Shown here piece by piece: positions 665-7,704 of a DNA stretch of 22,644 nt. Origin of the DNA: a virus. The position numbers and the translations under genes are program-made. The stretch lies in IMG/VR virus record IMGVR_UViG_3300047560_000036, positions 1 to 22,644 of that record, one strand, 5' to 3'. Position 1 is the stretch's first letter, and each line of letters opens with the position of its first letter. Under the pieces are notes generated by a model. The model worked only from the letters and a program-made list of their open reading frames with translations, had not been told where the DNA came from and did no database searches.

Positions 665-756
665 GAAAAAAGCCCTTTAGGGGTGATACAGTCGCGCCCT
701 CTGAATACCAGAGGCTGTACCACTTCTAAAAGGCTTTATCTGGCGCGAACAGATAT
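665..756 (-). ncRNA. Candidate structured small RNA or attenuator leader with pseudoknot and intrinsic terminator
   Basis: Read on the minus strand from about 756, the transcript begins with hairpin P1: TATCTG (755-750), loop TTCGCGC (749-743), CAGATA (742-737). A long imperfect hairpin follows. Stem A has 12 pairs (737-726 with 680-669). Stem B has 9 pairs (723-715 with 691-683) after an AA/CC internal loop. Stem C has 6 pairs (714-709 with 703-698) and loop GTATT. Bulge GCGCGA (697-692) is perfectly complementary to TCGCGC of the P1 loop (748-743), giving a 6-bp pseudoknot. The RNA ends in GGGC-U6 (671-666), a classic intrinsic terminator tail. Pairs 731-675 and 720-686 are G-U on this strand but A-C mismatches on the other, so the minus strand is the sense strand. 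I match it to no family I know. It may be a free sRNA or the leader of the 74-aa ORF. Confidence 0.72.
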
Positions 757-762
757 GGCTTC

Positions 763-790
763 ATTATATCAGGGTTTTCCCTATTGTTAA
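763..790 (-). promoter_or_regulatory. Leftward sigma70-type promoter with extended -10
   Basis: On the minus strand there is a perfect extended -10 (TGATATAAT, 771-763) and a -35-like TTAACA (790-785) separated by 16 bases. Transcription would start near position 756, at the foot of the first hairpin of the structured RNA. This is the best promoter match I found in the window. Confidence 0.7.
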
Positions 791-4687: not shown

Positions 4688-6165
4688 TGGATATTGTTGA
4701 TTTAGAAAAGAAGTTGGGGATTGCTGGACTATCTGCTGAACAGCAGTTAGAGATGGTAGCCGCCCTTCAAAAATCAGCACAATCACGCTTAGAAGCCACC
4801 CGTCAAGAGTCTATCGGCAAGAGCACAGAGCTTGTTATCCAAGGTTTGAAGAAAATCAAGTCAGACTTGGAAGCCAAGTTTGGTGATTTGAGCCAAACAA
4901 TCCAAGAAAAAGCGTCAAGCCTGAGAAACGGCATGGATGGAAAGGATGGGCGAGATGGAAAAGACGGGCGGGACGGAAGCCAAGGGCCTCAAGGTCTTCG
5001 TGGTGAACCTGGAAGAGATGGGCGCGATGGAGTGGACGGTGCTGATGGTGTTTCTGTCACCTCTGCTCGGATTGATTTTGACGGTAGCCTTATTATTGAG
5101 TTGTCTAGTGGTCGTGAACTCAATGTTGGTGAGGTTGTTGCTCCTGAGCTTGCAGAACGCATCAAAGTCGTTAGTTCTAATGGCGGTGGTACTTCTCAGT
5201 CTGTTCTTGACACTCTGACAAGTCTGCAAAACCAGATTGATGCCATCTCTGGCGGCTTGGCTTACCAAGGCACATGGAATGCCTCAACCAATAGTCCCGC
5301 TTTGGCCTCTGGTGTTGGCACAACTAACTACTATTACATTGTCGGCACATCAGGCTCTACCAACTTGGATGGTATTACCGACTGGGTGGTGGGCGATTGG
5401 CTGATATTCAATGGTACTGTTTGGCAAAAGATTGACCAAACAAACTTGGTGGTGTCTGTAAACGGGCAGACTGGCGCTGTTACGCTGACCTCTACCAATA
5501 TCTCTGAAGGCACAAACCTGTATTTCACCAATGCTCGTGCTCGTGGAGCTTTGAGTGCTGGTACAGGGATTAGCTACGATAACTCTACTGGACAGATTAC
5601 TAATTCTTCGCCAGATCAGACAGTTGCTTTGACAGCAGGGACAGGGATTAGTACTTCTGGGACTTATCCAAACTTCACCATTACTAATTCCTCGCCTGAC
5701 CAAACTGTAAGCCTGACTGGTGCAGGAACCGCCTCGATTAGTGGCACTTATCCCAACTTCACCGTCACCTCAAACGACCAATATACGGGCACTGTGACAA
5801 GTGTGACTGGTACAAGTCCTGTGGCTTCTAGCGGTGGCAATACGCCTGCTATTAGCTTGGCAAGTGGTTATGGGGATACGCAGAATCCGTTTGCTTCCAA
5901 GACAGCAAACTTCTTCTTGGCTGCTCCCAATGGCTCGGCTGGTGCGCCAACATTCAGGGCGATTGTTGCGGCTGATGTACCTACTTTGAACCAGAATACG
6001 ACTGGTACAGCGGCAAGTACGCCTAAGTTGCTGACAACAAACTTCACGATTGAAGAGTCTGGTGGCAAATTGATCTTCAAATATGGCGCGACTACAATTG
6101 CGTCAATGTCTTCAACTGGCGTAATAACCTCTGCAACGAACATTGTTGCAAATGGAACACCTTAA
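4687..6165 (+). CDS. Tail-fibre-like protein with collagen-like repeats
   Basis: This structural fibre protein is about 492 aa. An N-terminal helical/coiled-coil region (about 1-78) leads into 13 Gly-X-Y triplets (about 82-121, Asp/Arg-rich: GKDGRDGKDGRDG), which would form a collagen-like triple helix. A beta-rich shaft follows, with AYQGTWNAS, the phage fibre motif VVSVNGQTGAVTLT, and a 28-residue tandem duplication. It ends in LIFKYG...ATNIVANGTP, a C-terminus resembling that of the 91-aa fibre protein at 15605. AAGGA lies 9 bases before the ATG at 4687, which overlaps the portal stop (TGATG). An in-frame GTG at 4684 is an alternative start. It probably reaches the cell surface, but whether it is a tail or a head fibre is not shown. 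Confidence 0.88.
   Translation: MDIVDLEKKLGIAGLSAEQQLEMVAALQKSAQSRLEATRQESIGKSTELVIQGLKKIKSDLEAKFGDLSQTIQEKASSLRNGMDGKDGRDGKDGRDGSQGPQGLRGEPGRDGRDGVDGADGVSVTSARIDFDGSLIIELSSGRELNVGEVVAPELAERIKVVSSNGGGTSQSVLDTLTSLQNQIDAISGGLAYQGTWNASTNSPALASGVGTTNYYYIVGTSGSTNLDGITDWVVGDWLIFNGTVWQKIDQTNLVVSVNGQTGAVTLTSTNISEGTNLYFTNARARGALSAGTGISYDNSTGQITNSSPDQTVALTAGTGISTSGTYPNFTITNSSPDQTVSLTGAGTASISGTYPNFTVTSNDQYTGTVTSVTGTSPVASSGGNTPAISLASGYGDTQNPFASKTANFFLAAPNGSAGAPTFRAIVAADVPTLNQNTTGTAASTPKLLTTNFTIEESGGKLIFKYGATTIASMSSTGVITSATNIVANGTP
5602..5769 (+). repeat. Two diverged tandem 84-bp units within the fibre gene
   Basis: Units 5602-5685 and 5686-5769 each encode 28 residues starting NSSPDQTV and ending SGTYPNFT(I/V)T. 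The protein match is strong while the DNA has drifted at synonymous sites, so this is an old in-frame duplication lengthening the beta shaft. A fragment at about 5551-5600 (SAGTGISYDNSTGQIT) resembles the centre of a unit. Confidence 0.8.
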
Positions 6166-6177
6166 AGGAAAAGAGAT

Positions 6178-7704
6178 ATGGCAACACAATTAACCCTTAA
6201 TGATGGCTCGTTAAACAGCGCAGGGGCATTGGCAATTAAGACCAATGGAACCACGCAAGCTATCAATATCACGACTGGTCAGCAAGTTGAGTTCAATGAT
6301 GGTTCTGCATCAGCGCCATCTATTACCAATACTGGAGATGGAAACACAGGTGTTTTCTTCCCAGATGCTGACACTGTTGGCATCACTACTGGTGGAACTG
6401 AGAGAGCTAGGGTTGATAGTTCTGGTAACTTAGGTATTGGTACTTCATCGCCTTCCTCGGCTTTGTATGTAAAGCGCACTTCTGGCAACTCTGGTATTTA
6501 TGCCGACTACAACGGTACAAACATCGGTCGCTTAGAAGCTGCGTCAAATGGTAATTTGTACATCGGCCTTACAACAGGGTCTGGCGACATCAGCATCGGT
6601 AACACTAGCAACGCCAGCGCTGTTGTGTTGAACTCTTCTGGCAACTTAGGTTTAGGTGTTACGCCTAGCGCTTGGAGAAGCACTTGGAAAGCAATGGAGT
6701 TTGGTCGAGTTGGTAACGCTGTATTCGGCAGTACGTCTGGGTCTTCCATGGAAATACTTGTCAACGGGTATGTAGATTCATCCAACGCCTACCGTTACGC
6801 AAACAACGGAGCCGCATCCGATTACTACCAAAATGGCGGCGCACACATTTGGTACAACGCAGCCTCGGGCACAGCAGGTAACGCCATCACATTCACCCAA
6901 GCAATGACGCTTGATGCTAATGGGAATTTGGGTGTTGGTACTACAAGTCCTGCGTCAAGATTAAATGTTTCAGCAGCAAATGGAGCTGTTATTTTAGATA
7001 GCACTACTGCACTTGCGGCAAATAACGGTACATCATTAAATTGGCGTGCTGTTTATGACGGTTCTGGTTCAATCGCAAACGTAGCTTCTATTCTTGGCGC
7101 AAAAGAAAACGCAACGTCTGGAAACTACGCTGGATATATGGCGTTTTCAACAGAAAGTTCTGCTGGTTCTTTAACAGAACGTGCCCGTATCGACTCCAGC
7201 GGTAACTTGCTGGTGGGGACTACAAGTAATGCAAACGTTGCCCGTATCAAATTAGCGTGGACAACAGGTGGTTATGGTATTGAATCAGTTGCTAGCGCAA
7301 ACACACTTAGTTATCACATTGTTTTCCAAAATGCTAGTAACACGCCCGGCGCTATATCTACAACTAATAACGCAACAACTTACGCCACAACATCAGACTA
7401 TCGTTTGAAAGAAAATATTGCGCCAATGACGGGCGCTTTGGCTACTGTGGCACAGCTTAAACCTTGCACTTACACATGGAAAACTGATGGTTCTTCTGGT
7501 CAAGGGTTTATTGCTCACGAACTTCAAGAAGTCGTTCCTGATGCTGTTGTGGGAGAAAAAGATGCAGTAAAAGAAGATGGAGCACCTCAATATCAAAATA
7601 TTGACACCAGCTTCTTGGTTGCAACACTCACGGCGGCTTTGCAGGAGATGAAAGCAATAATTGATGACCAAGCTGCTCGCATTGCTGCATTGGAAGCAAA
7701 ATGA
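6178..7704 (+). CDS. Tail fibre with C-terminal S74 intramolecular chaperone
   Basis: This 508-aa fibre carries repeated shaft motifs of the form DSSGNLGIGTTS (near residues 80, 155, 245 and 340), then an S74-type autoproteolytic chaperone. The chaperone shows SDYRLKENI with the predicted Ser406/Lys411 dyad, GFIAHELQEVVPDAV, QYQNIDTSFLVATLTAALQEM and a terminal coiled coil ending IAALEAK. In known members the chaperone trimerises the fibre and is cut off just before the serine, which here would leave residues 1-405 in the virion. A strong AAAGGAAAAGAG SD precedes the ATG. The second half is more A/T-rich than the surrounding genes, fitting a mosaic host-range module. Confidence 0.93.
   Translation: MATQLTLNDGSLNSAGALAIKTNGTTQAINITTGQQVEFNDGSASAPSITNTGDGNTGVFFPDADTVGITTGGTERARVDSSGNLGIGTSSPSSALYVKRTSGNSGIYADYNGTNIGRLEAASNGNLYIGLTTGSGDISIGNTSNASAVVLNSSGNLGLGVTPSAWRSTWKAMEFGRVGNAVFGSTSGSSMEILVNGYVDSSNAYRYANNGAASDYYQNGGAHIWYNAASGTAGNAITFTQAMTLDANGNLGVGTTSPASRLNVSAANGAVILDSTTALAANNGTSLNWRAVYDGSGSIANVASILGAKENATSGNYAGYMAFSTESSAGSLTERARIDSSGNLLVGTTSNANVARIKLAWTTGGYGIESVASANTLSYHIVFQNASNTPGAISTTNNATTYATTSDYRLKENIAPMTGALATVAQLKPCTYTWKTDGSSGQGFIAHELQEVVPDAVVGEKDAVKEDGAPQYQNIDTSFLVATLTAALQEMKAIIDDQAARIAALEAK

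Follow-up and report, generated by a model that had tools for sequence, protein, structure and literature searches.

The question raised by this locus is what a short stretch on the minus strand of a phage genome fragment, positions 665 to 756, does for its virus. The DNA analysed, called the window in the following, is a 22.6-kb fragment (22,644 nucleotides) of an uncultured phage, which carries genes for the terminase large subunit, an SU10-like portal and the capsid on the plus strand. An earlier note, made from the letters alone, had described at this place two hairpins, a pairing between the loop of the first and a bulge in the second, and a terminal U-tract, and had suggested a phage sRNA or riboregulator of a shape that it did not recognise. 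The element, called RNA A here, lies divergently upstream of a small ORF (956-1384), which precedes the gene for the terminase large subunit; this ORF matches no family, and its name terS was given by position.

Fold and covariation of RNA A

RNA A is 92 bases long and is present as a single copy in the window (Table 1). P1, the second hairpin of 12 + 9 + 6 pairs (P2a, P2b and P3), the six-base pairing between loop and bulge, and the U6 tract that the earlier note had listed are all found on the minus strand. The loop and the bulge form six Watson–Crick pairs, and A737 could pair in P1 or in P2a, but not in both at a time. The earlier note had also pointed out two non-Watson–Crick positions that are G-U in this sense and would be A-C in the opposite one; these are U731-G675 and G720-U686, and the assignment is correct. 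The minus-strand sense is further supported by the asymmetry of the covariance-model score, which is 104.9 bits on this strand and 37.1 bits on the opposite one. Folding of RNA A gave a minimum free energy (MFE) of −39.3 kcal/mol, to be compared with −23.9 ± 3.3 kcal/mol for 200 shuffled sequences, none of which folds as well (z −4.6). The ensemble differs from the MFE by no more than 1 kcal/mol, and no competing nested (antiterminator) fold was found for RNA A. In all aligned copies the G+C-containing stem P2a is followed directly by a tract of five to seven U, which is the form of an intrinsic terminator.

Table 1. Positions of RNA A, its parts and the neighbouring elements in the window.
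Feature	Positions	Strand	Remarks
RNA A, whole structured RNA (putative leader)	665-756	minus	fold, covariation, covariance model (104.9 bits)
P1, 5' hairpin	737-755 (755-750/742-737)	minus	7-nt loop; 3 of 5 modelled pairs doubly changed
P2a, basal stem (putative terminator stem)	669-737 (737-726/680-669)	minus	double changes in L396-L399, L412, L413
P2b stem	683-723 (723-715/691-683)	minus	fold and covariation
P3, apical hairpin	698-714 (714-709/703-698)	minus	4 of 6 pairs doubly changed, other pairs invariant
Pseudoknot strand 1, P1 loop, UCGCGC	743-748	minus	covariation at 5 of 6 pairs; each of 8 haplotypes complementary
Pseudoknot strand 2, bulge between P3 and P2b, GCGCGA	692-697	minus	covariation
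Shine-Dalgarno-like AAAGGG, fully paired within P2a	673-678	minus	paired with probability 1.0
U6 tract, intrinsic-terminator-like 3' end	666-671	minus	U5-U7 in all copies
Sigma70-like promoter TTAACA-16-TATAAT, TG before −10	763-790	minus	11 of 12 matches; kept in relatives
ORF74, start codon 664-662	440-664	minus	conserved basic helical protein, median dN/dS 0.10
Second sigma70-like promoter TTGATA-17-TATGAT, end of ORF74	434-462	minus	−10 directly after stop codon
RNA D, structured, behind ORF74	195-433	minus	approximate ends

Homologues were collected from terminase relatives, by a pattern scan and by protein-first scans, giving well over a hundred locus records, some of which represent the same contig more than once; 59 distinct RNA sequences had been extracted before the last two scans. 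In an alignment of 41 distinct copies, 99.5% of the cells pair, and the same figure is obtained for 26 diverse distinct copies. The 41 copies contain 14 doubly changed pairs, in 136 cells, while column shuffles give 38 ± 7 and slid partners 1–8. The sole exception in this first set is L138, where P1 and the sequence upstream of it have been replaced. When all 1275 column pairs of the alignment are ranked by covariation, predicted pairs come first, and the highest 14 include five of the six that make up the pseudoknot.

It should be mentioned that much of the 5' strand of P2 was fixed by the scan pattern, and P2 therefore seemed more invariant than it really is. The copies derived from HNH proteins (L396-L399, L408, L412 and L413) are free of this bias, and in them P1, P2a, P2b or P3 differs in sequence with the pairing kept. 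With these included, a more diverse set of 26 distinct copies was compared, for which the P1 arm had to be realigned by hand in L412 and L413. Of the 37 pairs in this set, 24 are changed compensatorily in both partners, and eight pseudoknot sequences are seen, each of them perfectly complementary. The loop thus pairs with a distal strand and changes together with it at all but one of the six pairs, as in an H-type pseudoknot. The compensatory changes that the earlier note had proposed to look for in homologues are accordingly present both in the stems and in the pseudoknot, and RNA A is a genuine structured RNA with a real pseudoknot, the signal being far above chance.

Searches against Rfam gave no match at the gathering threshold for the window, and none at E values up to 5 for positions 180-960, so that the unfamiliarity of the shape is borne out and a match to a trivial terminator did not appear; L059 gave a chance miRNA match only. 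No homologue of RNA A or ORF74 was found in the phage-isolate and plasmid collections searched, and no published description of RNA A in the literature searches. Matches of the pattern scan in bacterial genome contigs look like chance, as they fall in unrelated phyla and the pattern is too loose. Judged by these sequence comparisons, the RNA family is a new one, with strong support and pseudoknot covariation of textbook quality, and it is represented neither in Rfam 15 nor in the searched phage isolates.

Promoter, downstream genes and neighbouring RNAs

Two features flanking RNA A had not been mentioned in the earlier note, namely a sigma70-like promoter upstream and an ATG at 664, one base past the U-tract. 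The promoter ends 6 nt upstream of RNA A, and with its end at 763 the transcript would be expected to start close to the first base of P1; across the copies the −10 box is mostly 6–8 nt ahead of P1. The promoter is kept also in relatives that carry other RNAs downstream. Within 665-756 on the minus strand a scan for sigma70-type promoters found no second one. The promoter spacer (764-780, minus strand) holds an inverted repeat, AGGGAAAACCCT, and another promoter family has the inverted repeat AGAATCAGATTCT instead; the spacer repeat looks like an operator.

Downstream, the ATG is found 0–1 nt past the U-tract in every aligned copy. The ORF that it opens is either ORF74 (63–74 aa) or an HNH endonuclease of ~150 aa; the HNH Pfam domain is present in about half of the loci, and the other half have the non-nuclease ORF. 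For the ORF74 of the window no match to any known family was obtained, and its predicted fold, two long helices of moderate confidence (pLDDT 78, pTM 0.48), gives no functional clue. Both ORFs are under purifying selection, with dN/dS values of 0.10 (ORF74) and 0.085 (HNH). In the protein-first sampling RNA A was directly upstream of all 36 relatives of ORF74 and of 53 of the 74 HNH relatives. These 53 are all those with at least 57% identity over the full length, plus one that is cut by a contig end; the more distant HNH genes, in other contexts, lack RNA A. Six RNA A sequences, including those of the window and of the HNH locus L004, are identical between ORF74 and HNH loci. Since identical copies precede either ORF family, RNA A would serve the gene position and not a particular product.

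The Shine-Dalgarno-like AAAGGG is weaker in divergent copies, being AGUGGG in L396-L399 and ACAGG in L412 and L413. The calculated anti-Shine-Dalgarno pairing is −2.5 to −3.4 kcal/mol in these, compared with −4.4 kcal/mol or better in most copies, and the weaker motif is seen in 5 of 27 aligned copies. This suggests that the conserved core is the fusion of terminator and start codon rather than the hiding of the Shine-Dalgarno sequence.

In 113 of the 117 locus records the locus stands upstream of terminase genes and is oriented divergently from them. A relative of this terminase could not be detected in the other four; in L142, the one of these that was read in detail, the divergent neighbour is once more a terminase gene, but a different one. 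The cassette of RNA A, ORF and RNA D in that record (5580-7646) is situated between SSB-like and replication-initiator-like genes. Sister phages of two types, B and C, have the same promoter without ORF74 or HNH and without RNA A, and carry other structured RNAs instead. The type B RNA (L005:4100-4369, minus strand, and relatives) comes directly after the promoter, with no ORF and no Rfam match; 17 of its 41 predicted pairs are doubly changed, which strongly exceeds the column-shuffle control. The type C RNA at the same site (L018:3703-4122, minus strand, ~400 nt) has a strong terminator-like end hairpin and no Rfam match. The site beside the terminase genes is prone to swaps, with one promoter serving alternative structured RNAs that lack Rfam matches.

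Structured RNAs are found also behind the ORFs. In the loci that were mapped, ORF74 is followed by RNA D and the HNH gene by RNA E (L004:3574-3803, minus strand); both RNAs are conserved and structured, and neither has an Rfam match. The second promoter, embedded in the end of ORF74, is at the same position in the ORF74 copies listed, and all 28 score 9–10 matches out of 12; in these loci it could provide RNA D with transcription of its own. For the HNH type, the sigma70-like scan found no strong promoter between the ORF and RNA E, and RNA E would therefore depend on read-through of RNA A. Further along, positions 1-80 of the window and the matching region in relatives contain a conserved C-rich tract, CCCCCTCCCCCC on the minus strand, which in the relatives is followed by direct repeats of the AGTAAGCACTAACTA type; tract and repeats are possibly an origin region.

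RNA A as a candidate leader, and the alternatives

The reading that we prefer, and consider to be probable on the strength of the comparative data, is that RNA A acts in cis as the 5' leader of a small phage gene, that is, as an attenuator fused to a ribosome-binding site. Transcription would start at P1, and the RNA polymerase would make the knotted RNA before it reaches P2a and the U-tract. Together these would form an intrinsic terminator that occupies the same place as the ribosome-binding site and stops one base short of the start codon. One stem can both end transcription and hide the ribosome-binding site because the 3' strand of P2a bears AAAGGG and is followed by U6. Most transcripts would stop as a ~92-nt RNA without the AUG; those that read through would carry the ORF, but with AAAGGG still locked in P2a. 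We infer that RNA A in this way keeps ORF74, or the HNH nuclease in the sister phages, at a low or conditional level, and that it would also limit the read-through that reaches the structured RNA downstream of the ORF. Formation of the pseudoknot does not have to wait for the 3' strand of P2a to be transcribed, and the knot may stabilise the 5' end or tune the closing of the terminator foot. Action in cis is suggested by the exclusive association with a start codon, the fixed spacing, the absence of RNA A where the ORF is absent, and its indifference to the identity of the ORF. Against this reading it can be said that the ensemble near the MFE offers no alternative antiterminator fold, that the Shine-Dalgarno-like sequence weakens in divergent copies, and that a strong promoter combined with a strong terminator would also suit a free sRNA.

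Such an sRNA of ~92 nt, acting in trans on host or phage RNA or on a protein, with the ORF expressed by occasional read-through, is the main alternative, although we find it unlikely. Its stability would come from the 5' hairpin, the pseudoknot and the terminator. RNA A has its own promoter, a terminator-like end and a compact pseudoknot, the sequence of P2 is nearly invariant in the main group, beyond what the pairing needs, and an identical RNA A stands ahead of two unrelated ORFs, all of which would fit. However, RNA A was never found without an ATG directly past the U-tract, and it is missing from the sister phages that have the same promoter but not the ORFs. In addition, P2 is largely replaced in L396-L399, L412 and L413 with its pairing kept, which argues against a fixed seed sequence. 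What stands of the earlier suggestion is therefore a structured RNA of the riboregulator type, with covariation in its favour, and the free-standing sRNA is the weaker reading in view of the ATG right after the U-tract. A further option, which we regard as rather improbable, is an attenuator gated by the knot itself, where pseudoknot and terminator foot would be mutually exclusive, and where a protein, ion or small molecule favouring the knot would lead to read-through and translation. The linker between P1 and P2a is only 0–4 nt in the copies, and a coarse rigid-rod model with unbent P2 requires two to five basal P2a pairs to be open for the intramolecular knot (one to three with strong bending); the pseudoknot strand is also transcribed ahead of the 3' strand of P2a. 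Against this, the model is coarse, and with 3-nt linkers it opens only two A-U pairs with the U-tract, so that termination may persist; moreover, the alignment has hardly any conserved unpaired bases that could make up a ligand pocket. If true, this option would represent a new class, in which a phage or host signal would settle termination, start-codon release and the downstream structured RNA in one step.

The order of promoter, pseudoknot RNA, terminator and small ORF resembles that of toxIN (PMC5772629), and one could envisage a type III toxin-antitoxin-like system in which the knotted RNA would act as antitoxin to the product of the ORF past the terminator. This is very improbable, as RNA A is one unit and not a set of repeats, the ORFs code for HNH or an unrelated 74-aa protein and not for anything like ToxN, and the six identical RNA A sequences are shared between both ORF families. 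Equally far-fetched is that the pairing between loop and bulge is intermolecular, leading to dimers or rings as for packaging RNAs. The strained intramolecular geometry at short linkers and the terminase-adjacent site would agree with it, but P1 (5 pairs), the 1-nt connector and the 6-bp knot helix have the proportions of a classical intramolecular H-type pseudoknot, and RNA A is absent from the close relative L002, whose TerL is 94% identical. Finally, the terminator form of the 3' end could mean that the element is just an ordinary intrinsic terminator or a DNA palindrome with no further function. We give this hardly any credence: it is contradicted by the covariation of the pseudoknot, the model score differs between the strands, and the terminator would precede its own gene.

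If the leader reading is right, terminator, ribosome-binding site and start codon would be fused in one knotted module common to two unrelated genes. RNA A would then offer a small, testable example of how phages control a gene, and might be of use as a portable regulatory part.

Comparison with known systems

In the Pistol ribozyme, the loop of the 5' hairpin forms a pseudoknot of ~6 bp with a strand between two stacked stems, and the same can be said of RNA A. Its strand is, however, on the 3' side of the apical hairpin, and loop and bulge covary rather than being conserved. The Pistol reading was set aside on the grounds of this different strand position, the lack of an Rfam match and the freedom of loop and bulge to covary. 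From ToxI, with which it shares the arrangement of promoter, pseudoknot RNA, terminator and ORF, RNA A differs in being a single 92-nt unit instead of 36-nt repeats, in the proteins, and in that the RNA is not specific to one ORF. Neither the tandem repeats nor a toxin of the ToxN, TenpN or CptN type that define type III systems were found at the RNA A loci, the proteins being HNH or unmatched.

Riboswitches of the fluoride and preQ1 types combine a pseudoknot with transcription attenuation. RNA A likewise has a pseudoknot and then an intrinsic-terminator-like stem ahead of an ORF, but it has no conserved unpaired pocket, no antiterminator pairing that we could find and no Rfam match, and one stem-loop serves both its terminator and its knot. 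Terminator and antiterminator folds that exclude each other, by which a riboswitch would be recognised, were not seen in RNA A, the conflict between knot and terminator foot coming from the coarse model only.

The closest parallel is offered by structures that hide the ribosome-binding site, which have been documented for the phage homing endonucleases I-TevI, I-TevII, I-TevIII, segB and Aeh1 mobE (PMC2988022). These T4-type leaders are hairpins that are by-passed by a late promoter, and the late transcripts lack the structure (PMC2988022). As in these cases, RNA A is a structure in phage RNA that can immediately precede a nuclease gene and pairs the Shine-Dalgarno region; in the window, AAAGGG is fully paired directly upstream of the start codon. 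An HNH nuclease is encoded downstream in mobE among the T4-type cases and in about half of the RNA A loci. In contrast to the T4-type leaders, the only promoter found for RNA A is upstream of the whole element, with no late-promoter by-pass found, its stem would double as an intrinsic terminator and is accompanied by a pseudoknot that covaries, and in about half of the loci the ORF does not encode a nuclease. By analogy, RNA A is thus most likely comparable in its action to the T4-type leaders that hide the ribosome-binding site, but constitutes a distinct, new family.
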